DNA from: a virus
DNA length: 64,000 nucleotides
IMG/VR virus record: IMGVR_UViG_3300033156_000272
Span: 23,094 to 87,093 of that record
Strand: one strand, 5' to 3'
In this document: piece by piece, positions 17,780 to 56,182 of the stretch
How positions within the stretch are numbered: the stretch's first letter is position 1
Layout of the letters: each line of letters begins with the position of its first letter
Notes under the pieces: model-generated
What the model was told of the DNA's origin: nothing
Databases searched by the model: none
The model's input: only the letters and a program-made list of their open reading frames with translations
Position numbers and translations under genes: made by a program

Positions 17780-18511
17780 TTATTCACAATCCAGTAGGCG
17801 ATCATATAATAATGGGTCATTTGTATCGTTTTTCTCGAATGCTTCACTTCTAAACCTACACGAGTCACACTTCCCGCAACACTTCCGGCCTCCAGAGTAA
17901 CAGGACCAGGTGTGTTCGTATGGAACTCCGAGCTCAATTCCTTTCTTGACAATTGCTTGTTTATCCATGTTCATCAGAGGTGTGAGAATCTTGATAGGAT
18001 TTCCTTCTATTCCTCTCTTGTTTGCAAGCTTGGAGAGTTCGTTCCATTTCATAATGAATTCTGGTCTACAATCAGGATAACCACTGAAATCGATAGCATT
18101 AACTCCGAGGTATATTGCCCTAGCATTTATGGTTTCTGCATAAGAGAGACATATAGCAATAAATATGTTATTCCTTCCAGGAACGTAGCTTATAGGAATA
18201 CCACCATCATACCCATCAGTTGGAACGGTTAACTTCTTATCTGTAAGTGCACTTCCGCCAAATTCTCCGAGAAACTTGATATTTATGATTTTGTGGTGTA
18301 TCCAATAATCGTGTGCTAGTTGTTTTGCTTTCTTGAGCTCTACTTTGTGTCTCTGTCCATATGAAAACGTTATCGCATGAACCAGATCCGCAGGATAATT
18401 GTGTCTCACTATTCCGAGTACAGTTGCACTATCTAATCCGCCAGACAAAACCACAACTACTGGGGGTGTATCTATTTCTATACACTTTCCGATTTTTTCT
18501 GCTGTCTCCAT
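17780..18511 (-). CDS. queC: 7-cyano-7-deazaguanine (preQ0) synthase QueC
   Basis: The 243-residue protein has the PP-loop SGGLDS at about 23-28, GGIPISYVPGRNNIF typical of QueC, and a C-terminal zinc site (CYSGGRKCCGKCDSC). QueC converts 7-carboxy-7-deazaguanine to preQ0 with ATP and ammonia. ATG 18511 is preceded by GGAGGGATGA; the in-frame TTG just before it is not needed. FolE2, QueE, QueD and a DpdA-like enzyme are also encoded in the window, so the product is probably destined for viral DNA. Confidence 0.93.
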   Translation of the reverse strand: METAEKIGKCIEIDTPPVVVVLSGGLDSATVLGIVRHNYPADLVHAITFSYGQRHKVELKKAKQLAHDYWIHHKIINIKFLGEFGGSALTDKKLTVPTDGYDGGIPISYVPGRNNIFIAICLSYAETINARAIYLGVNAIDFSGYPDCRPEFIMKWNELSKLANKRGIEGNPIKILTPLMNMDKQAIVKKGIELGVPYEHTWSCYSGGRKCCGKCDSCRFRSEAFEKNDTNDPLLYDRLLDCE

Positions 18512-18552
18512 CAATCATCCCTCCTTACTATTGCCTCAAACATTGCGTTCAT

Positions 18553-19377
18553 TCACTCCAGCTCCTTGTCGTTTAACATATGTGCGATAGCAATTGCATC
18601 GTGTGCGTGTATGCTCTCTACACTAGTTACTTGTACTTCTGCGGCTAGTATCTTAAATCCTTTGTTGGAGAACCTGATCTCGAGTGCATTTACTATCTCT
18701 CTGGCAGCATCCTCCACGAATCGCGGATTCTCGTAGGCCTCTTCTGTTACGGCTTTCTCATCAACTCTCTTGAGTACTGCGTATACTTGTGCACTTGCAC
18801 ACTTGGATGCGACTTCATATACATCCTCAATTCCTATTACTGTACTTCCAGCGAGTTGGTGAATAGTGACATTAATGATGGCTCTTTGATTGTGTGCACC
18901 GTAGTCCGATATCTCTTTGCTACAGGGGCACAATGTCGTTGCTGGCATGCTCACTGTCATTAGTTGAACATTTCCATTTACGGAGAAGGATACGTCCATA
19001 GGTATTGCTCCTTTCTCTCCGGTTATAGGTGCTGTTGTTTCTACGAAGTAAGTGAATCCCATAGATATAGTGCCATCGGCAGCTTCTTGTTCTTGTAGTA
19101 TCTTTATGAGGATGTTATTAAGCTCACTTAAGTCAATATCCTGGAAATCCTTGCTATGAAGAGTCTTAACAATACGACTCATGTGTATTCCTCTCTGGTC
19201 TTTTGACAATCCCACTATGACAGATATGTCTGCTTCTACTTGTTGCATGCCACCACGTGCAAAGTCTTTTACTCTCACGGGTAGTCTCACGTTCGAAACG
19301 CCAGCCTTCACTGGAATTTTTATTGTTGGTTCCGTTACCTGTACATCAGGGAGCTCATATATATCTTCTTCGGTCAT
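18553..19377 (-). CDS. folE2: GTP cyclohydrolase, FolE2/MptA type
   Basis: The 274-residue sequence has the hallmark TTLCPCSKEISDYGAHNQR (Cys150, Cys152, His162) and a C-terminal EIRFSNKGFKILAAEVQVTS segment of the GCYH-IB family. The bacterial FolE2 makes dihydroneopterin triphosphate, and the archaeal MptA makes its cyclic phosphate; here the first step of preQ0 synthesis is the sensible role. GGAGGTAAAATA precedes the ATG. Confidence 0.92.
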   Translation of the reverse strand: MTEEDIYELPDVQVTEPTIKIPVKAGVSNVRLPVRVKDFARGGMQQVEADISVIVGLSKDQRGIHMSRIVKTLHSKDFQDIDLSELNNILIKILQEQEAADGTISMGFTYFVETTAPITGEKGAIPMDVSFSVNGNVQLMTVSMPATTLCPCSKEISDYGAHNQRAIINVTIHQLAGSTVIGIEDVYEVASKCASAQVYAVLKRVDEKAVTEEAYENPRFVEDAAREIVNALEIRFSNKGFKILAAEVQVTSVESIHAHDAIAIAHMLNDKELE

Positions 19378-20249
19378 TATTTTACCTCCGTATTGGGGTA
19401 TGCTGCTATTACTCTATATCCATATTTTTTGATGAGAGAGTCGTACTCTCCTAGTAGGCACTCTTGTATGAAAGGACACCATCCGCAAAGTATCCCTACA
19501 TTTTTTGGGAAGAGTCCTGTTGAACTCTCACTTCTCACTTTTGCGAGCTTTCTATAGAAGGCTGCTACTGTCTGGTTCTTGAATTCGAACTGGAACACCC
19601 CCTTCTCTTTCGGGAATATTATCCTCCCGTACTTGATGGGTTTCGGATTGATCTTATGTACCTCTATTAGATGCTTATACCCCATAAGTTCGAATCGATA
19701 CTTACTATCCATGTACTTGTGATATATCCCTGTCTTATAGTCACTTATGATGCAGTACTTCCCATCGGGTGTATAATCGAGCCTATCTGATGTCCCCGTA
19801 AAGTTAACATCTGGGTCAGTATCATCAAGGGATTGTTCCACTGTAATGGGTGGCCAATATTCAGGGGATGCACAATCTTCAAACCATTCTACATCCATTT
19901 CTATCATGTTGTCGAATAGCATGTCAAGGATGCTGTTAAAACCATATGGAAGTCTCTTCTTATGGTGGCTTACTATATCTTCTGCGGTCATTTTGGTGAG
20001 TTTCTCTGGAGTGAGGTCGTTATATACTTTTTCCATTGAATTATGGAATGCTGTACCAATTACCATGGCGTCTGACTCATCTCCCTGTATCCCAATAAGG
20101 AACGACAACGCAAATCTGTATCTACAGTTGTCGAATGATTGGCAACCAGACTTTCTTAGTTGCATGTGCCCTACGTCTTCGGGGAGAATGTAGTACTCTC
20201 TTGGTCGGTTGGGGTCGAAGTAATTATATAGTCTCATTGGATGTATCAT
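19377..20249 (-). CDS. Cas4/RecB-like PD-(D/E)XK nuclease with Cys cluster
   Basis: ATG 20249 follows GGAAGTGA. N-terminal LRKSGCQSFDNCRYRF, GTAFHNSMEKV, a nuclease core with DRLDYTPDGKYCIISDYKTG, and a C-terminal CGWCPFIQECL give the layout of Cas4/AddB-type exonucleases that bind an iron-sulfur cluster. Next to no CRISPR genes, it is more likely a recombination or end-processing nuclease used with the Sak4-like ATPase and PolB. Confidence 0.8.
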   Translation of the reverse strand: MIHPMRLYNYFDPNRPREYYILPEDVGHMQLRKSGCQSFDNCRYRFALSFLIGIQGDESDAMVIGTAFHNSMEKVYNDLTPEKLTKMTAEDIVSHHKKRLPYGFNSILDMLFDNMIEMDVEWFEDCASPEYWPPITVEQSLDDTDPDVNFTGTSDRLDYTPDGKYCIISDYKTGIYHKYMDSKYRFELMGYKHLIEVHKINPKPIKYGRIIFPKEKGVFQFEFKNQTVAAFYRKLAKVRSESSTGLFPKNVGILCGWCPFIQECLLGEYDSLIKKYGYRVIAAYPNTEVK

Positions 20250-20895: not shown

Positions 20896-21320
20896 TCTCC
20901 TTCCCCCTCGTAGTAAGGACATTCACCTGATAGTTCTTGCTTCAGGGAATCTTTGCATACTGGATAATGATTGCACGTGTTACATTCTGGGCGAATCACA
21001 CCAAGTATTTCTCCTTGTAGTTCTACTGTGATATGAACTCTTGCATCGTCGTACTTGCTACCATATATATTCAAGTAGTCAGCAACTTCCCATAATAGTC
21101 TGAGACCAGCGTATCTATCCATGCTGAGTTGTTGTTCTGCAGTGGTGAGACCTCTGAGTTCAGTATAGTGCTTCTCTTCTATTATGGACGTTATCCATCG
21201 ACCATTATCACCTACATACTTGACTACATATCCATTGTCTACTGCTGTTAAATGCATTTGTATACATGATGATATGATTGTGTTATACATCTCTTCTTCG
21301 GTTTCTTCGTCGAGCGTCAT
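20892..21320 (-). CDS. Unknown acidic protein with C-terminal Cys cluster
   Basis: The 142-residue protein has a helical N-terminal two thirds and CNTCNHYPVCKD...CPYY near the C-terminus, resembling a [4Fe-4S] or zinc site. It is coupled to the HD and dUTPase-like genes by four-base overlaps. I do not recognise the family. Confidence 0.6.
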   Translation of the reverse strand: MTLDEETEEEMYNTIISSCIQMHLTAVDNGYVVKYVGDNGRWITSIIEEKHYTELRGLTTAEQQLSMDRYAGLRLLWEVADYLNIYGSKYDDARVHITVELQGEILGVIRPECNTCNHYPVCKDSLKQELSGECPYYEGEGE

Positions 21321-21919
21321 TAATTCCCTCTCCTGAGTTTAACTTCAAATCTAGAGTCTAAGAAGTCTGCATATGATACAATTCGCTCTTCAATAGTATC
21401 AGGACCGGGTAAGTATTTGTACCAATGTCCACCGTGACACAAAATCATCCTACTCACGTCTCTAACTTCTTCGGGGGGTAGGTGCAACCCCAGTGTTTTC
21501 TTCGCCCACTGATGACCCTTACTGGCATGGTTCTTGTTACTTGCTCCTTCGATCTTTGCGTAATCGTGGAAAAAGCATGCGAATACTATAAGGTCTATTC
21601 TATCTTGAGTCATTCCTATTTGTAATGCCATATGTTGAGCGAGTCTCATTACATTTGCAGTATGTTTGACCAATATCGTACTCCTATAGATACCATCTGC
21701 TTTCTTCTCTAAATGGTACTTCTGACTCGGAGAACACGGTACAGTATGCCAGAGTTTTATTTTTGTATCATAGTAGTCCTTGCATAGCGCTCTCTTATCT
21801 TTGTCTGCTATCAGTGCAAGCGACTCCATCATCAGATAATGAGACTTGCTATCAAACTCATCAAACTCCTTTATCGATGGTTTCTTTACTCCTTCGAATT
21901 CTTCTTTACTCATTGGCAT
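21320..21919 (-). CDS. HD-domain phosphohydrolase
   Basis: The 199-residue protein carries HTANVMRLAQHMA, then ACFFHDYAKIEGASNKNHASKGHQWA and a late YADFLDSR, the H...HD...H...D order of HD hydrolases. ATG 21919 has GGAGGAAG six bases upstream. HD enzymes of this size often act on nucleotides or dNTPs; the neighbours support nucleotide metabolism. Confidence 0.78.
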   Translation of the reverse strand: MPMSKEEFEGVKKPSIKEFDEFDSKSHYLMMESLALIADKDKRALCKDYYDTKIKLWHTVPCSPSQKYHLEKKADGIYRSTILVKHTANVMRLAQHMALQIGMTQDRIDLIVFACFFHDYAKIEGASNKNHASKGHQWAKKTLGLHLPPEEVRDVSRMILCHGGHWYKYLPGPDTIEERIVSYADFLDSRFEVKLRRGN

Positions 21920-22076
21920 GTTGAACTTCCTCCGCGTATCCACAGTAAGTGCAGAACATTACAATCTCTTTCGTATCTACATCCATTACTTCTGTGAAGG
22001 TGTGCTTCTCGCATTTCGGACAATCATATAGTTCTTTGTTGGTCGTTAGTCTTACTGCTCTGGGGCTAAATTTCAT
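21906..22076 (-). CDS. 56-residue zinc-ribbon protein
   Basis: Starts MKFSPRAVRL after GGAGGAAAG. CPKC and CTYC pairs about 23 residues apart give a TFIIS/RPB9-like ribbon spacing. The C-terminus overlaps the HD gene start. Confidence 0.62.
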   Translation of the reverse strand: MKFSPRAVRLTTNKELYDCPKCEKHTFTEVMDVDTKEIVMFCTYCGYAEEVQHANE

Positions 22077-22092: not shown

Positions 22093-24513
22093 TTATGCGA
22101 ATGCAAACAGTTTCGTTTGCTTCTGGTCTTGTAATATCATTTTGGTAGTGGTATCAATAACATCAAGGATCGGGTCTATCTTATTCTCTATGATCTTCTC
22201 TGTCTGTAGTTTCCAGTCTACCTTGTCTCTCCACGAGATGTTGTACTCGTCTGTCATTTCGAACTCTTTATTCTTTTTGAGTCCGATCCAATCAACATCA
22301 TATATATTGGTTTTCAGCTGAATTCCCTTCTCTTCACAGGCCTTAGGAGCTGTAACATACAGTCTTACACGCCACCAGAACTTCTTCTGCAACAGTACTT
22401 TGTAGTATCTCTCACCACTGAGAGGAGTTTTGTTGAATATATGATCGTAGTAATATAATCCCTTCTTGCTACTTGGTCTATAGTACTCTTCTAGTGGCTT
22501 TGCAACCTTTTGCGGGAGTCCTATCGACTCGAGTGGTTCAGAAGATGCCTTGGCAACTAACTCCTTGATAAAAATGCTAATCTGATTTTCTCCTGCCCCA
22601 CTGAGTATATAATCAAGTAGCTGTTTTTGTGCATATCTACTCCACTTAGCAGCATCGGAACGACGTGCCTCAAATCCTTTGATGTCGAGTTCTCTGATGG
22701 CTGCTCCTTTATTCCATACACGCATCCCGGCGTATCTCTTCTTCTTTCCGTGGAAGAGAATTCGTTCATACACCTTCTCAAACTCTATACGAGGCACGAA
22801 TCTCCAGCTTTCTTCTACTGCCATCTGATCAAATAGCGAATTAACAGTTTCTTCTATCTTCTTCCCCTTCTCTACAGGATTCTCTCCAACCTCAATCAAT
22901 ACGGAATCTGTATCCCCATATATTGGATTGTATCCCAGCTCTTTAGAGAACTCCATGGTCTTTAGAATCATCTTTCTGCCCATGAAAGTTGTACACTCTG
23001 AAATTTGCGGAACGTACAATCTACTAAATGGAAACGCAAACTGCCCATACATAGCTGCAATTAGTTGCTTAATTCCATACTGCATGTTATCGAGTATATT
23101 GTACTTGTTAATGAGGTCCTTGCTCATCGGGTTCTTATTGAGATCCAATTTAAGCATAGACATATCATCCTTTACTTTCATGCGTGCTACAGACAATCGC
23201 TCGAAGATTCGCGGAACAATACCAGGCGTTTTCATATCAACCCATACATTAGCAATCTTCTTCCATCCAGCAATCTCTTTTGTACTGAGAGTCTCTGGAG
23301 ATAGATTATTGCTCCTTATTATAGTAGGATACATCTGCGAGAAGTCGAGTGCGATAACGTTATCATACAACCCTTTCTTTGGTTGAAATACGAATGCACC
23401 CTCATACTTAAGTCTCTCTTCTTTATGTCGGCGGGCGAGTGCATAATGTCCGTGGAATTCGCGGAGAAGCAGTATCTCCACGTACCTCGTTGTCGTTAGT
23501 GTGTCATTAAGACTACACCCTACAACTCTGCTGACGCCATCAAACTGATTGACTATACCGTGCTTGTTGTCAATGGCCCAAGTGCGTTCTACATCACGTT
23601 TATTGTATTCGAGAATTATGTCTATGTGTTTTCGATTCATATAATTTTCGTAATCAAAATCATCAGCTTCCATACTAACCCCATATTGATCTTCTCGCGA
23701 AGCAACCCCTTCTAGTGTATAATCCTCAAACGTCTTTCCCTGGAAGTATTTCTTAAACCCGTCCATCAAGTCAAAGATCTGAATTCCTACTATCTTCTTG
23801 TCATTCATTCCTGTCTCACGAATTATTCTGACGGGACTCATCCTCTCTGCTTCAACCTTGCATCTCTTTGCTCTATTGACTATTGTCTTTACGTCAAACT
23901 GAGGGTTCCACCCGATCCAAACGTCTGGCTGTTTTTCTTTGATCCAATCAATAAATGCCATGATCATGTGTCGCTCTTCACTAGGTTTACATGCAGTCAT
24001 GGTGAAGTCTTCAATCTCTCCGGTATTGGGATTATGGTATTTTGCTACAATTGTAAGAATCATGTTTCTTGCTTTATCGGGGTCGGGGAATGCTCCGCGA
24101 GTTTCTACTTCTGTATCAACGTGGACTCTTGTTAGGCGGCATTCGGGATTTTCTGCGGGTATCACATCTCCAGTATCTGTGATTTGAAATCCTGCAAATA
24201 TCTTACGGTCGATGAGACATCTAATCTCGTAAAGTACGTCACTTTCAAAAGTGTATGAAAAGGTATCTCTTTTCTTAGCAACGTCGCTCGGTATTCTTGT
24301 TTCTACTTTCGAACAATTAACAATCTTGGGGCCAGACTTAGCTGTCTTAATCCCCTTATAAACCCCTCCAGGATCCTCGTAGTAAAAATACGGTGCTGGT
24401 GAATTCCACCCAAAGCACTTCTTTTCCTTGCCGTCAGGAGAACGTCCTATGAGGAAAATAACGGGCTCGTTCTCTATGATTTTATAGCAAGAATCAACCA
24501 GTAAGTAGTTCAT
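22093..24513 (-). CDS. polB: Family B DNA polymerase with 3'-5' exonuclease
   Basis: The 806-residue replicase has the exonuclease motifs DTEVE (about 133), GWNPQFD and YNKRDVERTW. The polymerase motifs are DFSQMYPTI (A), KQLIAAMYG (B, with AA where NS is usual) and YGDTDS (C). The last residues QTKLFAFA resemble a PCNA-interacting box. I see no viral clamp, so the host PCNA may be used. ATG 24513 is chosen because AAGTGAT precedes it. The polymerase would copy the viral genome. Confidence 0.95.
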   Translation of the reverse strand: MNYLLVDSCYKIIENEPVIFLIGRSPDGKEKKCFGWNSPAPYFYYEDPGGVYKGIKTAKSGPKIVNCSKVETRIPSDVAKKRDTFSYTFESDVLYEIRCLIDRKIFAGFQITDTGDVIPAENPECRLTRVHVDTEVETRGAFPDPDKARNMILTIVAKYHNPNTGEIEDFTMTACKPSEERHMIMAFIDWIKEKQPDVWIGWNPQFDVKTIVNRAKRCKVEAERMSPVRIIRETGMNDKKIVGIQIFDLMDGFKKYFQGKTFEDYTLEGVASREDQYGVSMEADDFDYENYMNRKHIDIILEYNKRDVERTWAIDNKHGIVNQFDGVSRVVGCSLNDTLTTTRYVEILLLREFHGHYALARRHKEERLKYEGAFVFQPKKGLYDNVIALDFSQMYPTIIRSNNLSPETLSTKEIAGWKKIANVWVDMKTPGIVPRIFERLSVARMKVKDDMSMLKLDLNKNPMSKDLINKYNILDNMQYGIKQLIAAMYGQFAFPFSRLYVPQISECTTFMGRKMILKTMEFSKELGYNPIYGDTDSVLIEVGENPVEKGKKIEETVNSLFDQMAVEESWRFVPRIEFEKVYERILFHGKKKRYAGMRVWNKGAAIRELDIKGFEARRSDAAKWSRYAQKQLLDYILSGAGENQISIFIKELVAKASSEPLESIGLPQKVAKPLEEYYRPSSKKGLYYYDHIFNKTPLSGERYYKVLLQKKFWWRVRLYVTAPKACEEKGIQLKTNIYDVDWIGLKKNKEFEMTDEYNISWRDKVDWKLQTEKIIENKIDPILDVIDTTTKMILQDQKQTKLFAFA

Positions 24514-25246
24514 CAATATCACTTGTTTCCAGTGCCTTCTGCTCTAACCACTTGGTGAGCTTAATGGCGATTGTTTTTCTAACATCATCCCAGATCCAGT
24601 TGTATTCGATATCAATATCAAGAGCATCTCTTAATATGTTGATGGAGTCGTTGTTAATTCTCTCTCGAATACAACCAATCTCTGTCGCCTTGATTGGCAG
24701 TGTTGTGTCGAAAGAGTTTGCAACTCCTCTGATGAGTGCGAACTCTTCCATGCTGTTGATCCCCAGAACATGAATTTTTGTCGGAGGGATGATTCTTCTC
24801 AATCCTCTCGCAAGTTCAACTCTGTCAAAAGGGAGGTGTTTTGGTAGTGCAAACCCGTCAACCGGATATCTATCATTATTGAGGAGGTCAGCCTTCTCCA
24901 TCGCCTCTTCTGGGGTGTCTGCCCACAATGAAGCATACACAGCTATTCTGTCATCGTCTCCTAGTCGGTGATAAAATTGTGGGAGGAAGTCCCGAGTCAT
25001 TTCATTAGTGAGTTCAGGCTCCTTCATCTGATCGGGAGCAATAATAGCTACACTCTTAACTCCAGCATTTAAGAGCTCTTGAGCTAGCATAATGAGTGTC
25101 ATATTGTCAACAGAGCAATCCTCGTAGGCTCCGTTGTCAAGCATTACACCCTTATTCTTGTAGTCACCAAAATCGCATATTCTCGTACGCGTAGCGACCA
25201 AAAAATAAGAGTCGAAGGGGGTTGGGGTAGGTTGGTAGTACTTCAT
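24494..25246 (-). CDS. dpdA: DpdA-like DNA-guanine transglycosylase (TGT superfamily)
   Basis: The 250-residue protein has features of phage DpdA proteins: MLDNGAYED (Asp37), IAPDQM (Asp72), GFALPKHLPFDR, KIHVLGINS (His159), and SFDTTLPIKATE (Asp180 as the likely nucleophile region). DpdA enzymes exchange guanine in DNA for a 7-deazaguanine base. With folE2, queD, queE and queC in the same genome, viral DNA probably contains preQ0 or a derivative. A tRNA-directed role is less likely because the PUA and zinc parts of tRNA TGTs are absent. Confidence 0.82.
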   Translation of the reverse strand: MKYYQPTPTPFDSYFLVATRTRICDFGDYKNKGVMLDNGAYEDCSVDNMTLIMLAQELLNAGVKSVAIIAPDQMKEPELTNEMTRDFLPQFYHRLGDDDRIAVYASLWADTPEEAMEKADLLNNDRYPVDGFALPKHLPFDRVELARGLRRIIPPTKIHVLGINSMEEFALIRGVANSFDTTLPIKATEIGCIRERINNDSINILRDALDIDIEYNWIWDDVRKTIAIKLTKWLEQKALETSDIDELLTG

Positions 25247-25250: not shown

Positions 25251-26150
25251 TTATCCTTCTGGCTTTTCGAAGTCGTCTATGAGTTCTCTCAATCCATACC
25301 ATTCAGCCTTGTCGTTTGTTACCCTGGCTACGAGGTACTTCTTTCCCTCGAGGTGTAGCGCACCTTTGGCTTTGTCGACAGTAGCCCAGATTTCAACCTT
25401 TTCCGTTTCAGGGTGCTGAGAACGTTCGAGGCTTATCTTCTGAAACATCATACCAGGGGTAGTGCTTACCCAGTCTGGGTGATAACCTGTTATCTGGAGT
25501 TCTCTTCCGCCACCGGCCTTGGGAACGTATTTCTTAGCTGCCTTCAAGTGTGTGGTACAAATAAACCTGCACTTAAGTGACCGGAGGAGTAACACTGCAG
25601 TATTGAAGTGTCTGTTTCTATTGCTCCATTGCCACTGATCTTTAATCTGTGTTTTGGGGTCTATCTTGAGGTCTTCATACCTCATTACATACTCACACCA
25701 TTTAAGCAGTGTATCGAGTCCGTCACAAGCTACTGTGGCTATATTTAGGGACTGTTCATTCCTCACGATGTATCTAATTACACTTAGCAACTTCACGTAT
25801 GAAGCCACATAGTCAATTCCTCCGTTATCATCAACAACTAAACAGTTGAGGATAACTATAGATTCATCTCCCGGAAAATACTTGTCCTTCAGTGGGCCAC
25901 AGCTATCATCGAGATCCAGAACGAAGATGTCCTTCTTTTCTTTAATATCTTTCTTCGTTCTGCTATCCAGAAGTATCCCAGACTTACCAACGCCATCAAA
26001 TCCGACGAGAGCCATGCATATCGGAGAGCATTTCGTGTTCCTGCTGATTTCTATTAGTTTCTCTACTTCATCATCCGAGAGAACATTATTCTCTACAAAT
26101 GCATCAGCGCCTTCTTCTACTTTTCCTGCTTTCTTGCTTCCGAGTGACAT
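25251..26150 (-). CDS. Sak4-like RecA-fold ATPase (AAA_24)
   Basis: Walker A GFDGVGKS lies at residues 50-57 and a Walker B-like IATVACDGLD near 140, followed by FICTTHLKAA as sensor. This is the single-domain RecA-like build of phage Sak4 proteins, which assist single-strand annealing and replication fork recombination. Neighbours are an OB-fold protein, PolB and a nuclease, the usual Sak4 context. Confidence 0.8.
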   Translation of the reverse strand: MSLGSKKAGKVEEGADAFVENNVLSDDEVEKLIEISRNTKCSPICMALVGFDGVGKSGILLDSRTKKDIKEKKDIFVLDLDDSCGPLKDKYFPGDESIVILNCLVVDDNGGIDYVASYVKLLSVIRYIVRNEQSLNIATVACDGLDTLLKWCEYVMRYEDLKIDPKTQIKDQWQWSNRNRHFNTAVLLLRSLKCRFICTTHLKAAKKYVPKAGGGRELQITGYHPDWVSTTPGMMFQKISLERSQHPETEKVEIWATVDKAKGALHLEGKKYLVARVTNDKAEWYGLRELIDDFEKPEG

Positions 26151-26161: not shown

Positions 26162-27211
26162 TCAATTTACGCGCTCTACGGCGTTCATTGGTGATTCGTC
26201 AGCCGGTATCTTAGACTCCTCGGGTGCATATAGACCAGTTACCTGTATAACAACACGCTCTTCGTCGTTGTAGGTAGACAGATTGGGTCGTCCGCAAACG
26301 ATCACTCTGCTTCCCTGCCCGAAATCAATTGCGTCGAACAGATATTCCGGTATGAAACACACAATACCAGGGTCTTCTATGTCACGAGTTTCGTCGTCCA
26401 GAACCATCATTCGCGATCCACCACGTTCGTCTCTTGCAATAAACGCAACATCACCCATAGTTATAGTGAATCGCTGGTTATCGTCGGCAACCTGGTCAAA
26501 GTAGGTTTCTATAGCACCAAGTTCTATTGCGTGTCCTTCGAGATCTCCCTCTATATCTTCGAGTATAACATCAAAGTCACTATCTGGTGCATCTGCTACG
26601 TCGAATACTATTCGGCTATACGGGTTCAACAGCCTGAATCCCTCGGCAGGCGACTTCTTGCTGAGATTCGCACGGAAGCTACTCCACTTGAATACAGGAA
26701 TATCGATCTTTCCTGCCAACTGATTTCCCAGAATCATTTTGAAGGGCCAAAGATTGCCATCTTCATCCTTTGCGACTCCTTTCACATTCTGCAGAAATTC
26801 GTTCTCAGGAAGAGGCTTTCCGAAGTTGTTGTTTGGTCTGCTTCCTATCGCTTCCCTAGTATCTAACGGGATTCCATTATCGTCGGTAAAACCCTCGTCA
26901 ACTGCCTTGTCGGGATCCGTCTTGAAAAGCTCTATAGCTGCCGCCCTGGTACTTGCAATTATATCAAAGGGATTCTCTATAGAGAACAAAAATCCCTCAT
27001 AGGTTTTCGCAGGGCTTCTAAGCTGGCTTTTGAAGTCAGATCGCAGCTGTGCCAGAACGCGCTTTTGAATTAGTGTGTCGTCTGCGTCAGGCAATGCTTC
27101 CCGCATCTGCACATTTTCCTTCTCTACCAGCTCTTTGAAGGCATCTGATCCGATGCCTAGCTTTTCCTTGAAGAGCTTTTCTAGCTCTTTCATTACGTCT
27201 TTCTTAGCCAT
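26162..27211 (-). CDS. OB-fold single-stranded DNA binding protein (RPA-like candidate)
   Basis: The 349-residue acidic protein has two barrel-like regions, one around GKIDIPVFKWSSFRANLSKK with FRLLNPYSRIVFDV, and a last one ending VIVCGRPNLSTYNDEERVVIQ, a phrase common in archaeal OB/RPA-type proteins. It is next to the Sak4-like ATPase. AAGGAGGAAAAATAAA precedes the ATG. Assignment is by pattern and context; a structure prediction would settle it. Confidence 0.55.
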   Translation of the reverse strand: MAKKDVMKELEKLFKEKLGIGSDAFKELVEKENVQMREALPDADDTLIQKRVLAQLRSDFKSQLRSPAKTYEGFLFSIENPFDIIASTRAAAIELFKTDPDKAVDEGFTDDNGIPLDTREAIGSRPNNNFGKPLPENEFLQNVKGVAKDEDGNLWPFKMILGNQLAGKIDIPVFKWSSFRANLSKKSPAEGFRLLNPYSRIVFDVADAPDSDFDVILEDIEGDLEGHAIELGAIETYFDQVADDNQRFTITMGDVAFIARDERGGSRMMVLDDETRDIEDPGIVCFIPEYLFDAIDFGQGSRVIVCGRPNLSTYNDEERVVIQVTGLYAPEESKIPADESPMNAVERVN

Positions 27212-29311: not shown

Positions 29312-30478
29312 TTAATCTACAATCACCACTAGAGTCTTTGCTCTTCCCCCGCCTTTGGTGTTTTCGTCCTTTATAAACTTAATCATACTCATGCGGGACA
29401 TTGCCTGTAGAATATCAGAGCTACGCCTCCAATCCATCCCGAATACGGCAAGCTTCTTTTTGACTTCGGTAACCGTTGCATAGTTCATCTCTTTTAATAT
29501 TTCGAATACCTGTGTGAACTCGGTCCCTCTGTTCAGCTCTCCTCTCCACATATTTTCCATCTTGAATAGTTTGTAGAGTTCAGGAAATGCCTTAATTGTG
29601 AGATGCTTGTCGAACGTTTTGGCTCTTGCAATATTCATTCCGAGGGCAAACCGCTCATACAAGGGCTCCTCGTAGTGAGGAACATCTATTTCATCGAGCC
29701 ATTTATATATCATGGGATCATAAGAGACTGACGTTATGGCCTTTAACCCTTCCTTCATGTGTTCAATATCCTTTCTGATTTCCATAAGGATTCTAACATT
29801 CGGTCTGATATTTCTGCCGTCTCTTCTTGCTAGCTTGATTGCATGGCGCTCTTGTTCATTAGGTATGAATATCATGAACATCAACCTTCGCGGAAGACCA
29901 GAGGAGAGATCTATGCGACACGGCTGGCTACCCGTCCACAGCGATAGTCTTGTCTGATATTGTATCTTTCCCATGGCGAGGCGCTTTATTACAAACCCTT
30001 GGTCAAGTGCCGTAAGCATAGCATTATCTAGATTGACGGAATGTTCCATTTTCATGGCGTTTGTTAAGGCCGCGAATTCGTCGATCCCTAAGATTCCGTT
30101 GCGATGTTCATATGCTGCACCCGGTACTTCAGTAGGATCGCCGTCTATCATACGAATACTTCCGGTGAACGCTGCTTCTGTCATTACACCTTCCATCCCG
30201 TGTGGTACGCCGCCACCATATAGTATACTCCCTTTGCCTATGAGAAACTTTTGCAGTATGGTGGTTTTGAGATATCCGGGTGGTGCAACGAAGAAGATAT
30301 TCATCCTCATTTGAGGGATCTTGCCGCCTTCGTAATAGAACTCTCGTTTCTGATTTTCCAGGTTGAAGAGATGCGCGCCTACACTCGCAGAGTAGAACGG
30401 TACGAACCGCTCATGGTAGACTATCCTTGCGTGATCGAAATACTCTAGCGTACTATCGTAGAACGTCAATTGTTTCAC
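29312..30478 (-). CDS. MCM-like AAA+ helicase/ATPase
   Basis: Walker A APPGYLKTT at 65-73, Walker B NGILGIDEFAAL with IDE at 132-134, sensor-type LSLWTGSQP, and SGLPRRLMFMIF as arginine finger follow the MCM order. A C-terminal winged-helix-like domain (from about 330) is present. At 388 residues it lacks the N-terminal OB/zinc collar of host MCM. GTG start overlaps the preceding stop. Most likely the viral replicative helicase. Confidence 0.75.
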   Translation of the reverse strand: MKQLTFYDSTLEYFDHARIVYHERFVPFYSASVGAHLFNLENQKREFYYEGGKIPQMRMNIFFVAPPGYLKTTILQKFLIGKGSILYGGGVPHGMEGVMTEAAFTGSIRMIDGDPTEVPGAAYEHRNGILGIDEFAALTNAMKMEHSVNLDNAMLTALDQGFVIKRLAMGKIQYQTRLSLWTGSQPCRIDLSSGLPRRLMFMIFIPNEQERHAIKLARRDGRNIRPNVRILMEIRKDIEHMKEGLKAITSVSYDPMIYKWLDEIDVPHYEEPLYERFALGMNIARAKTFDKHLTIKAFPELYKLFKMENMWRGELNRGTEFTQVFEILKEMNYATVTEVKKKLAVFGMDWRRSSDILQAMSRMSMIKFIKDENTKGGGRAKTLVVIVD

Positions 30479-31149
30479 CCGTTCAGCTTCCGGTGTATTG
30501 TCCTAGCAGTTACTGGTCCAACACCGTTCACTGACACGAGTTGTTTATGGTCCGCCTCTGCGACACCATGGAGACTTACGAATCTATCAAGTAGCTTCTT
30601 AGCTGTGTTTCTTGTTACACCCGGTATAAACTCAGTGAGTATATCTACTGGAGTTAATTCTGCTTTGGTCCTGGCTAACTGCTGCTTCCCATATTTCCCT
30701 TCTTTTATTTTTTCAAATATCCGTTTTACAAGTTCGATTGCTTGATCGTCAGTTTCCACCCAAAGTATATGGAAATTGTTTCTAACCATGATTGATGCAA
30801 GTGAGCCGTAGATAACACTTGTGTTCACTTTCATCTTCATCTTTGCCATTCGCAGAATTACATCGTCTAATCTTCCAACTATGAGGAGTATGCGCAGAGG
30901 ATAGTGTCTCGTCATCATCTCCGTTTGTTTGAATATCCTTCTCGACTGTATAGAGTTTACGAGATCTTGCACCCGCTTGCGCTCTATGCCTACTAGCCAT
31001 TCACTGTGGCCATCTTTTTCTTTTTTACGCAGCGCAAAATCTCCACATTGTAATGCCATCTTTGTATAATCAAGTTTCCTTCTGTCTGCTATTGCAAACA
31101 CAAAGGACTTCTCTCTACTGTCCATTGCTATCTCATATTCATCAGACAT
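30475..31149 (-). CDS. XPF/ERCC4-type nuclease with HhH tail
   Basis: The signature ERKRVQD (about 56-62) is the ERKxxxD active site; MDSREKS near the N-terminus and CGDFAL are further family strands. The C-terminal ELTPVDILTEFIPGVTRNTA and VNGVGPVTARTI give a helix-hairpin-helix pair. The protein would cut flap or fork DNA. ATG 31149 follows AGGTGG. It lacks the Hef helicase domain. Confidence 0.88.
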   Translation of the reverse strand: MSDEYEIAMDSREKSFVFAIADRRKLDYTKMALQCGDFALRKKEKDGHSEWLVGIERKRVQDLVNSIQSRRIFKQTEMMTRHYPLRILLIVGRLDDVILRMAKMKMKVNTSVIYGSLASIMVRNNFHILWVETDDQAIELVKRIFEKIKEGKYGKQQLARTKAELTPVDILTEFIPGVTRNTAKKLLDRFVSLHGVAEADHKQLVSVNGVGPVTARTIHRKLNG

Positions 31150-31173
31150 TTTAACCACCTACTGCTAATTTCA

Positions 31174-31698
31174 TTACTCGATCTTTCGTGCATAAATTTC
31201 TATTTCCCCTAGTGCGTATGTCTCTATTTCTATACCCTCATAACCTAGTTCAAACAGGGTACTCCTATAATACTGATTGAATGCAAGTATATCATCATAG
31301 CGGTCGTCTACTTCAACCATTTTTGCTGGGTCAGGACAGAGTAGGAATACTACATGCGGGTGTGGAGATATCCAAATAAACCATCTAGATATCTTCTTTA
31401 ATGATGGAACATTATACTTCTGAGATAGATACCTGCCATATACTACAGCATCTATATAACATCTGTCCAGTAATGTTACTTTATTGAATCGTAATTTTAT
31501 GTACTGTTTCGCTCTGTCAAACGCGAACAATACTTCACGAATTTTTAACCAAGTTTTATTATCCGTAACTGGTAATTTCCTCATCAGAGGAGCTGCGTGG
31601 ATGTTCTCCATCTTCTCCCCGAACCGCTCTCTTATCAGCGTCGTCTTTCCTGCTTTGTCGACACCAATTACTGCTATTAGTTCTTTTTTCACTTTCAT
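31174..31698 (-). CDS. tmk-like: Thymidylate-kinase-like P-loop kinase
   Basis: GVDKAGKTT (about 12-20) is the Walker A loop and LLDRCYIDAVVYGRYL provides the DR(Y/x) motif of dTMP kinases; VVFLLCPDPAKMVE resembles the following strand and LID region. At 174 residues it is shorter than cellular Tmk. GGAGG precedes the ATG. Role in dTTP supply is likely. Confidence 0.75.
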   Translation of the reverse strand: MKVKKELIAVIGVDKAGKTTLIRERFGEKMENIHAAPLMRKLPVTDNKTWLKIREVLFAFDRAKQYIKLRFNKVTLLDRCYIDAVVYGRYLSQKYNVPSLKKISRWFIWISPHPHVVFLLCPDPAKMVEVDDRYDDILAFNQYYRSTLFELGYEGIEIETYALGEIEIYARKIE

Positions 31699-33893: not shown

Positions 33894-34637
33894 TCATATC
33901 CCTCTTGTTTTCTCTGGCCAGACAATCTTATGGATCTGTAGAACAAACTTCACACAGGTGAAGGGCATGAGGGATTGTAATTTGATCACTCCATCAGCAA
34001 CAGCTTGTGCATTCACGCATTTGTTATTGTCGTCAAATATTGGAGATATGTGTACCTCTGGATTATTTCCCAACTTACTCACTATATCAGGTATGAGAGT
34101 TATATGCTTCCATTCTCCGACAACAAACTTGAGGCAATCACAGTCATCTAGTGCTTCATAGTTGTTGGGGTGAAAGTATGCATTAAATTTATAGTCACAT
34201 ACAAAACAGTCGACCCATGGAAAGGATTCTATGTTCTGTGTACCGTTCGTTTCTAGTACAATGTGAAAATCTTCTTCGGAAAGCGCACTCAGAAGTCTGT
34301 CCATGTTTGCGTGTATAAGTGGCTCTCCGCCAGTTATACATATACTATTAATTTTGGTGTCTTCTCTTATCGTCACGATTTCTGCCATGATGTCATTGAC
34401 AGACATCACTTTCCCGTGGTGTGCATACTTTGAATCACAATAATCGCAATTCAAGTTGCACCCTGCTACACGAATGAATATCTCAGGAAGGCCCTGCATT
34501 GGACCCTCCCCTTGTAGCGATACGAATATCTCGACAACCTCTAGGGGGGCGTCATAATATTCTTCTGCAGATATATCTTCGTATAACGATTCTACATCTT
34601 CGTTCTTCGGTTCAGTTTCTTGTTTAGTCTGAGACAT
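33894..34637 (-). CDS. queE: 7-carboxy-7-deazaguanine synthase QueE (radical SAM)
   Basis: CNLNCDYCDSKY (Cys60, Cys64, Cys67) is the radical SAM cluster site; SLQGEGPMQGLPEIFIRVAG before it and ICITGGEPL after it are QueE phrases. The enzyme contracts 6-carboxytetrahydropterin to CDG, feeding QueC. The N-terminal 30 residues are an acidic extension not usual in the family. AGGAGG precedes the ATG and its promoter carries the shared palindrome. Confidence 0.93.
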   Translation of the reverse strand: MSQTKQETEPKNEDVESLYEDISAEEYYDAPLEVVEIFVSLQGEGPMQGLPEIFIRVAGCNLNCDYCDSKYAHHGKVMSVNDIMAEIVTIREDTKINSICITGGEPLIHANMDRLLSALSEEDFHIVLETNGTQNIESFPWVDCFVCDYKFNAYFHPNNYEALDDCDCLKFVVGEWKHITLIPDIVSKLGNNPEVHISPIFDDNNKCVNAQAVADGVIKLQSLMPFTCVKFVLQIHKIVWPEKTRGI

Positions 34638-42876: not shown

Positions 42877-42927
42877 TATTCTCACCACACGATATATCGT
42901 TAGTGGTAAAGCTCTTTCCGTGGTAGT

Positions 42928-43000
42928 GAGCCTGGAGGGATTCGAACCCCCGATCAATGGATTAAAAGTCCATAGCCATACCTAGCTAGGCCACAGGCTC
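42928..43000 (-). tRNA. tRNA-Lys (UUU)
   Basis: A full cloverleaf: acceptor GAGCCTG/CAGGCTC, D arm with GCTAGG loop, anticodon arm GGACTTTTAATCC with anticodon TTT, and T arm with TTCGAAT loop. No CCA is encoded. Its first 19 bases overlap the last codons and stop of the phosphatase gene. Confidence 0.9.
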
Positions 43001-43362
43001 TCTGAAGGCACGGTTAGCCACTCTGGATGCTTTCGAATGCAGCCCCGAGCTTTCTTTATTAGGTCATATGCATTATGTATTCCATTACTATGGTATTTGT
43101 ATAAGTAGTACGCTACTACTAGTGGACTTCTATCAATTCCAGCGTTACAGAATATGAGTACTTGTTTATTTGCATCACGATACGCGCGGATAATACTAGT
43201 GAGTGCGTTATAGTGATTCATGTTCACTTTCGTGGTTTTTTCATTGACATCAGCTATGTCACGACAATCAACAATGCGCCATCTACTATTATACTCATGG
43301 ATACTGATAAACTCTGCATCGTACACATCGCCGATCCATATTCCAGGGATAATCTCATCCAT
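42982..43362 (-). CDS. Dual-specificity-type protein phosphatase
   Basis: The 126-residue protein has FCNAGIDRSPLVVAYYL with Cys72-x5-Arg78, the PTP loop (Phe replaces the usual His before Cys), and VDCRDI before it. Small DSP domains dephosphorylate proteins or RNA 5' ends. Its 3' end overlaps the tRNA-Lys gene, which then supplies the last six codons. Confidence 0.78.
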   Translation of the reverse strand: MDEIIPGIWIGDVYDAEFISIHEYNSRWRIVDCRDIADVNEKTTKVNMNHYNALTSIIRAYRDANKQVLIFCNAGIDRSPLVVAYYLYKYHSNGIHNAYDLIKKARGCIRKHPEWLTVPSESLWPS

Positions 43363-43374
43363 AATGACACCTTA

Positions 43375-43524
43375 TTAGTTCCATTCGATTGTTATTTCAC
43401 CACTACATTCACCATCAGAACAGTATGCATTGATGTTCTTCTTTATCCAATCGAGTACATCGTCCTGGTATTTGTCCGTCAGTAGTTCCAGCATTTCTTC
43501 TACCATCTTGCATTCAGTATCCAT
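43375..43524 (-). CDS. 49-residue acidic protein
   Basis: Starts MDTECKMVEEMLELLTDKYQ after AGGAGGAA. A helix is followed by NAYCSDGECSGEITIEW. Unknown function. Confidence 0.52.
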   Translation of the reverse strand: MDTECKMVEEMLELLTDKYQDDVLDWIKKNINAYCSDGECSGEITIEWN

Positions 43525-43548
43525 CGTTCATTCCTCCTGATATTCAGA

Positions 43549-43616
43549 CCCGAGCGCAGGACTCAAACCTGCTTTTGTCGACGCATCAACTGAGACACAC
43601 TCAGGTGTCACCCGGG
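43549..43616 (-). ncRNA. Aberrant tRNA-like structure 1
   Basis: Acceptor-like CCCGGGT/GCTCGGG (with G-U pairs) and a canonical T arm GCAGG-TTTGAGT-CCTGC are present, but only 37 bases separate them. The middle folds as GACAC-CTGAGT-GTGTC and GTTGA-TGCG-TCGAC instead of normal D and anticodon arms. It may be a degenerate tRNA or a tRNA mimic; no anticodon can be assigned. Confidence 0.4.
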
Positions 43617-43626
43617 ATGATGAATA

Positions 43627-43791
43627 GGCCGGGTAGGGATTTGAACCCACGACGGAAGTCCTGTTGCTAAGACTACTCGAACCGCGCGCCATGTACAAGC
43701 AACGTACGCTGAGATCTTTGTCTCGTAGGCGCTCTGGGAGGCCTCCTTAATGCACTCCCTTCTGGTGCATTACCTGACTATGCTACCGGCC
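43627..43791 (-). ncRNA. tRNA-like element with long insert (possible intron)
   Basis: The 5' part has GGCCGGT then a perfect D arm GCAT-AGTCAGGTA-ATGC. The 3' part has a TTCAAAT T loop and CCCGGCC. About 100 extra bases lie between, and three bases at the T/acceptor junction do not pair. An intron-bearing tRNA or a decayed one are both possible. Confidence 0.35.
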
Positions 43792-43808
43792 ATTTTGCGA
43801 ATGTTGGT

Positions 43809-43878
43809 GCTCGCGGAAGGATTTGAACCTTCATCACCATAAAACACTGGTGTCATCGCCAGGTTAAACTACGCGAGC
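43809..43878 (-). tRNA. tRNA with eight-base anticodon loop
   Basis: Acceptor GCTCGCG/CGCGAGC and T arm GAAGG-TTCAAAT-CCTTC are perfect. The anticodon stem CACCA/TGGTG encloses eight bases, GTGTTTTA, and only two bases separate it from the T arm. I leave the identity open. Confidence 0.5.
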
Positions 43879-43920
43879 AAGTCGTGGCTTTTTGATAACG
43901 CAGAAGCCTAACTGCCAACT

Positions 43921-43975
43921 TGGTCGGCTAATCACCCAGCCCGGTGGTAACACCATGGCCACTTCGCCTAGCCGA
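43921..43975 (-). ncRNA. Short structured element with CCA-like end
   Basis: TCGGCTA/TAGCCGA forms a seven-pair stem followed by CCA, around 38 bases that hold short hairpins (CACC/GGTG, TGGT/ACCA). No T loop is present. May be a tRNA relic. Confidence 0.3.
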
Positions 43976-43982
43976 AACCATG

Positions 43983-44092
43983 CTCCAGGATTTTATCGAA
44001 TTTTGTATCCTGTTCCCTAATCGTTCATCATTTTGAACTTTGACTCTTAATCGTTGAGTCCTGATGTTTGAATGTTGAACTTTCTAGTTCAT
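43983..44092. other. Run of four short hairpins
   Basis: AGGAT/ATCCT, GTTCA/TGAAC, GACTC/GAGTC and GAACT/AGTTC stems of five pairs follow each other in about 110 bases without an ORF. Together with the tRNA-like elements this covers the gene-free stretch 43,525-44,260. Confidence 0.45.
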
Positions 44093-44099
44093 CAGTCTA

Positions 44100-44172
44100 T
44101 AATATGGTGGGATTCGAACCCACGACCTCAATCTCATATAGATTGCGCTCTACCAGACAGAGCTTCATATAT
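44100..44172 (-). tRNA. tRNA-like gene with UAU anticodon position, atypical
   Basis: D arm GCTC-TGTCTGGTA-GAGC, anticodon stem CAATC/GATTG and T arm GTGGG-TTCGAAT-CCCAC are good. The anticodon loop is TATATGA with A instead of U at position 33, giving UAU (Ile) at 34-36. The first two acceptor pairs are mismatched. Function doubtful. Confidence 0.5.
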
Positions 44173-44204
44173 CCATCGAAGAACTCTTAACCCAGAGCTT
44201 AGGG

Positions 44205-49228: not shown

Positions 49229-49720
49229 CTAGCGTTCCCAAGGGAATACGAGTCGTTTATCTATAGTGTGTCCATATCCTGCTATGGCGAATGTGCTCGA
49301 CAATCCTTGCGGAACATTAATTGCATCAGCACAAAAGCCCACGAATATGTGTACGTCACAAGGCAATATTCCTGCCATCCTACATATCATATCGAGCGTT
49401 TTTCCAGTCTCGCATATGTCGTCAATTAGGATGTCTCCTTTCTGTACAGGGCCACTAACTTTCAATGGAATGCCTGTAAGGTGCGAGAGCTTTACTCCCA
49501 AGATCAGGCCTCCTCGCGGAATTCCATAGAGAGAACCAATACTGCCTCCTCCTTTCATTACTTCTATGGCACGGGCAATCTCCTTGCATATTTCATCTAT
49601 TAACTCCCATGACACATAATATGCTTCTTCATATACTGTTATGTCAGGAGGTTTCACAACAAGATGAGAGTGGAGATCGTCTATTTCAACTTCCTCAATG
49701 TCTCTGGATATTAGTACCAT
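49229..49720 (-). CDS. Phosphoribosyltransferase (purine PRTase-like)
   Basis: GDILIDDICETGKTLDMIC is the PRPP-binding loop and SLYGIPRGGLILGVKLSHLT the N-terminal motif of type I PRTases. At 163 residues it fits xanthine-guanine or hypoxanthine PRTases. It could salvage purines, or perhaps deazapurines. Confidence 0.82.
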   Translation of the reverse strand: MVLISRDIEEVEIDDLHSHLVVKPPDITVYEEAYYVSWELIDEICKEIARAIEVMKGGGSIGSLYGIPRGGLILGVKLSHLTGIPLKVSGPVQKGDILIDDICETGKTLDMICRMAGILPCDVHIFVGFCADAINVPQGLSSTFAIAGYGHTIDKRLVFPWER

Positions 49721-52874: not shown

Positions 52875-52881
52875 TCATTCA

Positions 52882-53058: not shown

Positions 53059-53062
53059 GTGT

Positions 53063-53494: not shown

Positions 53495-53645
53495 GATGGT
53501 ACCCTCCTGCAGAGACTAGGTATGCAATGCCACTACATACACAGCCCAATATTGGATCTCCTCTGAGTGCGGTGATGATACCAGCACCCACCATCATGAA
53601 TACTATTGCTGTGTCCATCAGTATAAGTGTTTTGACCCTGTTCAT
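53472..53645 (-). CDS. 57-residue membrane protein
   Basis: Starts MNRVKTLILMDTAIVFMMVG; two hydrophobic spans separated by ALRGDPIL. Overlaps the next gene by 23 bases. Confidence 0.5.
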   Translation of the reverse strand: MNRVKTLILMDTAIVFMMVGAGIITALRGDPILGCVCSGIAYLVSAGGYHHERSTTE

Positions 53646-54287: not shown

Positions 54288-54751
54288 GCATTCCTCCCTT
54301 GTCTTGTCATGTCCCAGTGGTCGCATCCGGGCCAGCTGTCTTCGTTCCAGAACGACTCACACCATCGAATTGCTTGTAGTCTGGTCATGTTTTCGCGTGC
54401 TTCAATGTATGTTACGAATGCTTCGAATGCATCTAGGGTGTCGATGTCGCCGTCGAATTCGTCCTCGAAGTCGTTGAATAGGTTGTCTATGCATTCGTCG
54501 ATGTGCGGCTCGTTGTACATACTTTCCTGGTCTCTTACGTGGTATTGTGCGCCAAGTCTTTCGGAGTATGTTTCTGTGCTATCGTCATCTGGTGTGTAGC
54601 AGTAGGATAATCCTCCTTTCAGTCTGATCGATATCACTCCTTGGCTGTCTATGTGGAAGTGGGTTATTGGCGGTCGTTTCTTATTTATTGCCTTTTCTCT
54701 ATCTGTTCTTTCTCTATCTGTTCTTTCTCTATCTGTTCTTTCTGTTTTCAT
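54284..54751 (-). CDS. Acidic protein with RTDRE repeats (155 aa)
   Basis: The N-terminus is a short RTDRE repeat encoded by 15-bp DNA repeats. Then a strand region (FHIDSQGVISIRLKGGLSYC) and an acidic helical part (NLFNDFEDEFDGDIDTLDAF). Unknown. Confidence 0.57.
   Translation of the reverse strand: MKTERTDRERTDRERTDREKAINKKRPPITHFHIDSQGVISIRLKGGLSYCYTPDDDSTETYSERLGAQYHVRDQESMYNEPHIDECIDNLFNDFEDEFDGDIDTLDAFEAFVTYIEARENMTRLQAIRWCESFWNEDSWPGCDHWDMTRQGRNA
54694..54743 (-). repeat. Tandem 15-bp repeats
   Basis: Three copies of TCTATCTGTTCTTTC (+ strand) encode the RTDRE units at the start of the 54284-54751 protein. Confidence 0.88.
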
Positions 54752-55269
54752 GTCCGTCTCCTCCCTTTGTATTTTTGGGGCTTGTTGCTTTCTTTCGGTG
54801 GTATTGATGTTATGTTTCTGATTGCCACCTTTCCTTGTTTCATTAATAATTCTTCCTGTATGCGCTTGTTCACGCCGGTCTGCTTCGGTATGCTCTTGTA
54901 GTTGAGTACTGTTTCGTCTTTTATTGACAGTTTCTTCCTGAGCTTCTTGAACCAGAATTCGTTTTCAAATGTTATCGATACGAGCAGTATATCCATATAC
55001 TGCATTGCCATGTTGTGCAATTTTATGGGGGACATTGTTGTTGTCTCTGGGTGTGATTTCACGCGGTTGTATGCATGCGATAGTGTGTCATATGCCGATG
55101 ATAGATCGGCTATAGTGTCCTTCCCTCCCATCCTAGGATCATCGCGGATATGTTTCAGCGTTGCTATGTATGCATCGTCGTACGACATTCGCATTGATAG
55201 ACTTACTATGCAAGCCGCTTTTTGTGTTCTCCCGATGTGTCTCCTGTAATGCTTGTGACAGTAGCTCAT
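54748..55269 (-). CDS. Unknown helical protein (173 aa)
   Basis: ATG 55269 follows GGAGGTACAC. Starts MSYCHKHYRRHIGRTQKAAC; long helical stretches and a basic C-terminus. Unknown. Confidence 0.57.
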   Translation of the reverse strand: MSYCHKHYRRHIGRTQKAACIVSLSMRMSYDDAYIATLKHIRDDPRMGGKDTIADLSSAYDTLSHAYNRVKSHPETTTMSPIKLHNMAMQYMDILLVSITFENEFWFKKLRKKLSIKDETVLNYKSIPKQTGVNKRIQEELLMKQGKVAIRNITSIPPKESNKPQKYKGRRRT

Positions 55270-55775
55270 AGGTGTACCTCCTTCAGTAGTGTTACTTGTT
55301 TGTACATTGATGTGCCGGATGGCCACTGTCCCATGTGTTGTGCGTCCAGCCCGTCCTCTGAAACCCAGCGCCAATCGAGCATTTGAGGGAGTGTTACTTT
55401 GTCCTTGCATGCGACCAAGAACAATGTGTCGTGGAACGCTGTATAGTTACCTGCCCATTTGCGTATGTCCCCCTTCGTGTCGAACACACATATGTGATAT
55501 CCTGCTTTTGCATATTGTCGCTTTGCGCGAGTGGGCTTACCTTTTGCGTATATTACTCCGGGGAGGTGTCTCTGTCTTCCTAGGTACTCACAGAACGCAA
55601 CGTTTGACACGAGAATCTTGCGTCCTTTGTATTTATACTCCTTCACTATCTTGTAGGCGAGTATTTCGTCATCTTCTATTTCGATAGTGTCGTTGGTGAG
55701 GGGAATCCTTACTACTTTCACAATGCCACTCTCCTCTTCCTGGTGCAGTCGGCGCGTGCTGTTGAACTTTCCCAC
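55266..55775 (-). CDS. Unknown protein (169 aa)
   Basis: Starts MGKFNSTRRLHQEEESGIVK; the centre LPGVIYAKGKPTRAKRQYAK is basic, the end beta-rich. It overlaps queD by 58 bases. Confidence 0.55.
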   Translation of the reverse strand: MGKFNSTRRLHQEEESGIVKVVRIPLTNDTIEIEDDEILAYKIVKEYKYKGRKILVSNVAFCEYLGRQRHLPGVIYAKGKPTRAKRQYAKAGYHICVFDTKGDIRKWAGNYTAFHDTLFLVACKDKVTLPQMLDWRWVSEDGLDAQHMGQWPSGTSMYKQVTLLKEVHL

Positions 55776-56182
55776 ACAGATACAGAAACTGTAACTACTT
55801 GGTCAAACTTGTCTAGTATGCTTTCTGCTATATACTCTGCCAGGTGTTCTGCGGTGATCGTCTCTATGGGTAAATCCTCGACCATCTTTCCCGGAACGAT
55901 TATCTCTCCCCAAGGGTGGTTGATTATTGCAACGCGGTGCTCTTCATATTTTTTATTATTGTTCCACGTTATCAGATCCATCGGTACTAGGAGTTTGTGG
56001 TCCAGCTGGTCTACTATTTCTTTGATGCTTGTGAAGTCGACCAACATCCCGTCGGGTTGCACCTTCCCTGTGAGCTCTAGCTCCACTTTCCATGTGTGGC
56101 CGTGTATATTTCTGCAAGGGGTATTTGTTGTGTGGACAAAGTGTGCTGCATCGAACTTAAGCGTCTTGTGTATCGTCGTCAT
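55718..56182 (-). CDS. queD: 6-carboxy-tetrahydropterin synthase QueD
   Basis: FDAAHFVHTTNTPCRNIHGH followed by TW gives zinc ligands His14, His28, His30 and catalytic Cys23. MLVDFTSIKEIVDQLDHKLL, ETITAEHLAEYIAESI and VSVWES complete the family. QueD turns dihydroneopterin triphosphate into CPH4 for QueE. ATG 56182 fits the GGAGGAGAAGATC SD better than ATG 56197. It is 21 kb from queE, within a run of unknown genes. Confidence 0.93.
   Translation of the reverse strand: MTTIHKTLKFDAAHFVHTTNTPCRNIHGHTWKVELELTGKVQPDGMLVDFTSIKEIVDQLDHKLLVPMDLITWNNNKKYEEHRVAIINHPWGEIIVPGKMVEDLPIETITAEHLAEYIAESILDKFDQVVTVSVSVWESSTARADCTRKRRVAL

Follow-up and report, generated by a model that had tools for sequence, protein, structure and literature searches.

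A putative short DNA-guanine transglycosylase gene overlapping a family B DNA polymerase gene in an uncultured virus with preQ0 pathway genes

The virus of IMG/VR record IMGVR_UViG_3300033156_000272 was found to carry four genes for the synthesis of preQ0 and a gene for a compact DpdA-type transglycosylase (dpdA, positions 24494-25246 of the window). The window, i.e. the whole stretch of DNA analysed, comprises 64,000 nucleotides and corresponds to positions 23094-87093 of the record, which totals 87,093 bases. The virus very probably makes preQ0 and uses the transglycosylase to swap a 7-deazaguanine base into its DNA, timed to replication and as a defence against restriction. This explanation rests on the genes and their intact motifs, the family and fold of the transglycosylase, the co-occurrence of the family with preQ0 genes and a conserved pairing with the gene for a family B DNA polymerase (polB). 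Viral DNA with 7-deazaguanine was already known; new is the location of dpdA in the replication module, where it overlaps polB in a conserved pairing.

Pathway genes and the short transglycosylase

The first-pass annotation of the window had described folE2, queD, queE and queC with their catalytic residues, and all four genes were indeed intact, supported by profiles (Table 1) and in possession of their catalytic motifs. SGGxDS and the Cys cluster were kept in QueC, CPCS and YGAHNQR in FolE2 (PF02649 E 3.7e-72 in a genome-wide scan), Cx3Cx2C in QueE and C-x3-HGH in QueD. The top four NCBIfam matches of QueE were all QueE models, at scores under their curated cut-offs; QueD models were likewise the best matches of QueD, whose TIGR03367 score was also under the cut-off. 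Together with dpdA the genes occupy four places on the minus strand, with queC and folE2 next to each other. Their scatter over 38 kb was borne out, but the proposed division into at least four transcription units stays unproven, since all five genes share one strand. One relative (L121/L139) is likewise split, with folE2 and queC on one side and queE and queD on the other, whereas another (L009) has queD, queE, folE2, an HD-domain gene and queC in one cluster. Such scattering is thus not shared by all members. The QueE of the split relative (L139, 18442-20124, minus strand) is itself interrupted by an intein exactly within the radical-SAM Cx3Cx2C motif (GCNLRCEW, intein CIGEGEK...FIVHN, CDTTYAF).

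Motifs in the same order as in guanine transglycosylases were recognised by eye in the dpdA product: LDNGAYE (D37), APD (D72), R142, HVLG (H159) and SFDTTLP (D180). Single-sequence searches of IMG/VR, INPHARED and the PDB gave nothing, or solely the identical contig of another record (IMG 3300033149); a match to COBRA1 (E 0.001, below the cut-off) was dismissed as chance. The degenerate pattern DNGA[YF]E...PD was run over IMG/VR and matched 18 stretches. Proteins with the same motif order were encoded in 13 of them, and a profile built from these detected 17 further loci (L110-L126). P8, D37, N38, G39, A40, E42, P71, R142, H159, G162 and D180 were invariant across 27 members, and D37 and D180 (in FDTTLP) were kept in 46 out of 46 members of a larger set. 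Judged by motif order rather than superposition, these two residues may be the counterparts of D102 and D280 of tRNA-guanine transglycosylase (TGT).

When the family profile was compared with all PDB sequences, the sole significant match was 7ui4, a 'DNA-guanine transglycosylase', at E 0.0013 for a profile of 10 sequences and 1.9e-5 for one of 27. Queuine tRNA-ribosyltransferases came next, at E 0.6-0.8. The CxCxxC zinc motif present in Escherichia coli TGT was absent in all 46 members. Over 15 virus loci, the significant matches of the profile were known or apparent DpdAs or their homologues, namely the annotated DpdA of immuto (E 1.7e-41), proteins of CPt10 (E 3.5e-36), phiST, BSP7, Youna2 and MA9V-3, two bDpdA-like proteins, a ParB-DpdA fusion, CAjan DpdA1 and nt-1 DpdA2; CPt10 and immuto thus fall in the same profile family as the window protein. 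The latter is a real homologue of DNA-guanine transglycosylases. One contig, 3300037493_005411 (L009 4629-6251 and L137 5666-6448), encodes two transglycosylases: a short DpdA, next to polB, and an open frame of 541 amino acids with a ParB-like N-terminal part fused to a PF23859 DpdA domain.

An AlphaFold2 (AF2) model based on the family alignment reached a predicted local distance difference test score (pLDDT) of 79.9, with the barrel core above 90, and a predicted template modelling score (pTM) of 0.74. A single-sequence model (pLDDT 51) was discarded. The best 50 PDB matches of the model in Foldseek were all tRNA-guanine transglycosylases (E 1e-6 to 3e-5). Matches in the viral library were the phiST member, a 'queuine tRNA-ribosyltransferase' of a Sulfolobales rod-shaped virus, a mycophage homologue and Vibrio nt-1 DpdA2. 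The protein is thus predicted to have the TIM-barrel fold of TGTs.

Genome context pointed in the same direction. At least one preQ0 gene was present inside the fetched stretch in 16 of the 17 loci L110-L126. On whole contigs, many of which are fragments, QueD was found in 23 of 28 carrying dpdA and QueC in 14 of 28, compared with one of five chance-pattern controls in either case. Family, fold and context therefore identify the DpdA-like transglycosylase named in the first-pass annotation, and the profile match, the missing zinc motif and the company of preQ0 genes set it apart from tRNA TGTs and non-enzymatic proteins.

Two further genes could be related to the pathway. The HD-domain protein of the window has a homologue between folE2 and queC in L009 (phmmer 5.5e-12) and is a possible accessory of the pathway. 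A general partnership with dpdA is no more than possible, since by sequence similarity the protein was found only in the window virus, in L009 and, weakly, in L094. A phosphoribosyltransferase-like protein (49229-49720, minus strand) resembles one encoded between queE and folE of Flavobacterium phage immuto (E 2.8e-12) and might salvage guanine freed by DpdA.

Replication module and host

The likely ATG of polB, at 24513, lies 20 nt within dpdA, as read from the junction sequence. An ATPase-like gene, the marker of the virus lineage, was used as a query and gave 36 related virus loci. Many of them shared a module with a kinase, the ERCC4/XPF nuclease and the ATPase on one side, and the putative OB/RPA-like protein, AAA_24, DpdA, PolB and a dUTPase-like protein on the other. 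The polB gene was downstream of dpdA, on the same strand and within 0.7 kb, in 24 of the 24 distinct contigs with both genes (a manual count, duplicates removed by contig, which includes the record identical to the window). Spacing between the open frames ranged from -69 to +673 bases, with an overlap in 13 contigs. In Bacillus phage BSP7 and Weizmannia phage Youna2 dpdA is paired, again with an overlap, with the gene for a family A polymerase; the pairing therefore survives a change of polymerase type. It is not universal, as the polymerase of immuto is 3 kb away and none was detected nearby in several bacterial-phage contigs. The tie between modification and replication suggested in the first-pass annotation thus turned out stronger than claimed. 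In three relatives (L143 17358-20714, L147 5158-8580 and L154 1629-5234) the polB frame is about 1 kb above the lineage norm of 2.4 kb, and inteins are a possible explanation.

Table 1. Genes of the preQ0 pathway, dpdA and the surrounding replication module in the window
Feature	Position	Strand	Evidence
QueC, preQ0 synthase	17780..18514	-	PF06508 E 4.4e-74; equivalog TIGR00364 above cut-off
FolE2-type GTP cyclohydrolase	18553..19377	-	PF02649 E 1.3e-70; NCBIfam FolE2 equivalog above cut-off
HD-domain phosphohydrolase	21320..21943	-	PF01966 E 2e-11
Family B DNA polymerase (polB)	22093..24522	-	NCBIfam polymerase models
Putative short DNA-guanine transglycosylase (DpdA; DpdA3-like), 250 amino acids, intact frame	24494..25246	-	Family alignments, PDB profile match, AF2 and Foldseek
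AAA_24 ATPase, putatively RecA/Sak4-like, directly upstream of dpdA	25251..26150	-	PF13479 E 6.7e-6, just under cut-off; position conserved in relatives
Conserved replication-module protein, perhaps OB/RPA-like	26162..27211	-	Position conserved in relatives; no family match in family-model scan
ATPase-like protein, marker of virus lineage	29312..30478	-	Used as query for relatives
ERCC4/XPF-type nuclease with helix-hairpin-helix (HhH), archaeal-type	30475..31158	-	PF02732 E 3.7e-21
QueE, radical SAM 7-carboxy-7-deazaguanine synthase	33894..34637	-	Best NCBIfam E 4.2e-39
QueD, 6-carboxytetrahydropterin synthase	55718..56197	-	PF01242 E 2.2e-26; TIGR03367 E 1.8e-22

The record belongs to an uncultured tailed virus, likely of an archaeon. 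The remaining 23 kb, outside the window, encode a terminase and, judging by gene position and sequence, probably the portal and structural proteins as well. The best-ranked named-virus matches of PolB were haloviruses (25% identity), whereas those of the terminase were bacterial phages (26% identity), so the nearest named viruses point to different hosts. The archaeal-type ERCC4 nuclease and polB would favour an archaeal host. Neither the lineage ATPase nor the DpdA family had a confirmed match in scans of named-genome contigs, and no provirus was found there. CATG and GATC were mildly low and most other 4-mers near expectation in a palindrome-avoidance check, which was not informative. The window also encodes tRNA-Lys(ttt), tRNA-Ile(tat) and one odd tRNA-like gene with an anticodon called as two bases (42926-44173, minus strand). 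In L003 a frame resembling, by eye, a homing endonuclease (4570-5334, plus strand) lies immediately upstream of the terminase gene.

Substrate of the enzyme and identity of the base

In the proposed mechanism, GTP would be converted to preQ0 by the virus's own FolE2, QueD, QueE and QueC. The compact DpdA would take guanine out of DNA and put the 7-deazaguanine base in, with D180 as the putative nucleophile and D37 as the putative general acid/base, by analogy with TGT. Modification would be timed to replication because dpdA is probably on the same transcript as the overlapping polB. The outcome would be virion DNA with 7-deazaguanine that resists host restriction. For phage CAjan it is known that DpdA is needed for 7-deazaguanine in DNA and that the modification protects against restriction (PMC6884629). 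A more far-reaching form of this mechanism is put forward only tentatively and is the less likely of the two: in a lineage of archaeal-type tailed viruses, the compact DpdA would be translationally coupled to PolB and work with it, guanine being replaced at or immediately behind the fork and nearly genome-wide.

Several points weigh against DNA modification by this enzyme. No model of Pfam, NCBIfam or PHROGs convincingly matched the protein, and the Pfam DpdA model PF23859 gave no match at E up to 10; PF23859 was not taken as defining DpdA, because it fits other DpdA subfamilies. The Foldseek TM-scores were moderate, about 0.48-0.55, and the tree placed the window copy among proteins of polB viruses with weak support and on a long branch. 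Co-occurrence and fold do not establish DNA as the substrate, and both virus and lineage are so far known from genes and models.

The main rival explanation is a route at the nucleotide level: the transglycosylase would exchange guanine on dGMP or dGTP, and the product, once raised to the triphosphate by a viral kinase, would be built into DNA by the partner polymerase. The pairing with polB would then reflect substrate supply and not DNA editing. Genes resembling dNMP kinases within the window (16116-16676 and 31174-31698), P-loop kinase-like genes adjoining dpdA in CPt10, BSP7, Youna2, phiST and MA9V-3, and the small size of proteins of 250 amino acids with no added DNA-binding domain would all suit such a route, and a modified-dGTP route was suggested for Campylobacter phages by Hutinet 2019 (PMC6884629). 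However, superfamily members that have been characterised use polymer as their substrate, inactivation of dpdA abolishes the modification in CAjan (PMC6884629), and the kinases may simply provide ordinary dNTPs; we therefore consider this route unlikely. Less probable still is that the virus makes preQ0 as an auxiliary supply to the tRNA of its host, in which case the candidate would be a tRNA transglycosylase. Archaea do need preQ0 for the archaeosine of tRNA, and phage groups with preQ0 genes but no DpdA exist (PMC6884629). Such a role fits poorly with the family profile, which ranks a DNA-guanine transglycosylase above all tRNA TGTs of the PDB, with the absence of the zinc motif throughout the family and with a gene embedded in the replication module.

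If DNA is indeed modified, the final base would be preQ0 or a derivative. The absence of QueF and of a Gat-QueC fusion, noted previously for the window, was upheld, as QueF was not found in the whole 87-kb record and a family-model scan detected no fused amidotransferase domain in QueC. Both findings speak for preQ0 itself, and host ArcS is tRNA-directed. Nevertheless, it is a real possibility, if somewhat short of an even chance, that the amide (ADG), an archaeosine-like base or a reduced derivative is produced by enzymes of the host or by a viral gene not yet recognised. dADG occurs in phages with no known modifying enzyme (Salmonella phage 7-11, PMC6884629; MED16, PMC8306585), an archaeal host would supply its own archaeosine enzymes, and most genes here have no assigned function. 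CAjan gp46 ('FtrA') was considered as an additional modifying enzyme and rejected, since no homologue was present in the genome.

The transglycosylase evades the usual profile libraries, and similar viruses are therefore likely to escape surveys. The pairing of dpdA with a polymerase, seen across highly diverged proteins and different polymerase families, opens a way to test whether such enzymes work on completed duplex DNA, at the replication fork or at the nucleotide level, and why some viruses replace far more guanine than others.

Relation to known systems

The short DpdA family is now seen to reach beyond bacterial phages, into viruses whose replication genes are of archaeal type. The enzymes of Campylobacter phage CPt10, Flavobacterium phage immuto, Cellulophaga phage phiST and Bacillus phage BSP7 have the same length and invariant motifs as the window protein and match the family profile at E 3.5e-36 or better. 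In immuto, phiST, BSP7 and Youna2 the preQ0 genes neighbour the short dpdA. The window copy is only about 19-26% identical to the aligned members of the family, and its virus differs from the CPt10, immuto, phiST and BSP7 type in having archaeal-type replication genes, FolE2 in place of FolE1 and polB in place of polA. Campylobacter-type enzymes were reportedly named DpdA3 and tied to complete replacement of guanine by Cui et al. in 2023 (Nucleic Acids Research, NAR), with DpdA4 as the archaeal-virus type. The short family of CPt10, phiST, BSP7 and immuto is presumably the group called DpdA3.

The DpdA of PDB entry 7ui4, the best match of the family profile, aligns in its HLLG and SIDSTTP motifs but is 436 amino acids long. 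The two bDpdA-like proteins examined (L011 and L014) carry the CxCxxC motif, unlike the family of the window. DpdA1 of Escherichia phages CAjan and 9g shares the TGT superfamily, the preQ0 pathway and a neighbourhood of replication genes; it differs in being a distant profile match (18 bits) and in having FolE1 and clustered pathway genes. HVTV-1 and the Druskaviridae are likewise tailed viruses of archaea with a preQ0 pathway, and we take their transglycosylase to be DpdA4. HVTV1_69, encoded next to folE of HVTV-1, was a weak homologue (19 bits) and may be this enzyme. The genes of HVTV-1 are clustered and its transglycosylase belongs to another subfamily than that of the window virus. A further difference is the QueF homologue of HVTV-1, whose DNA contains mainly dPreQ1 (PMC6884629).
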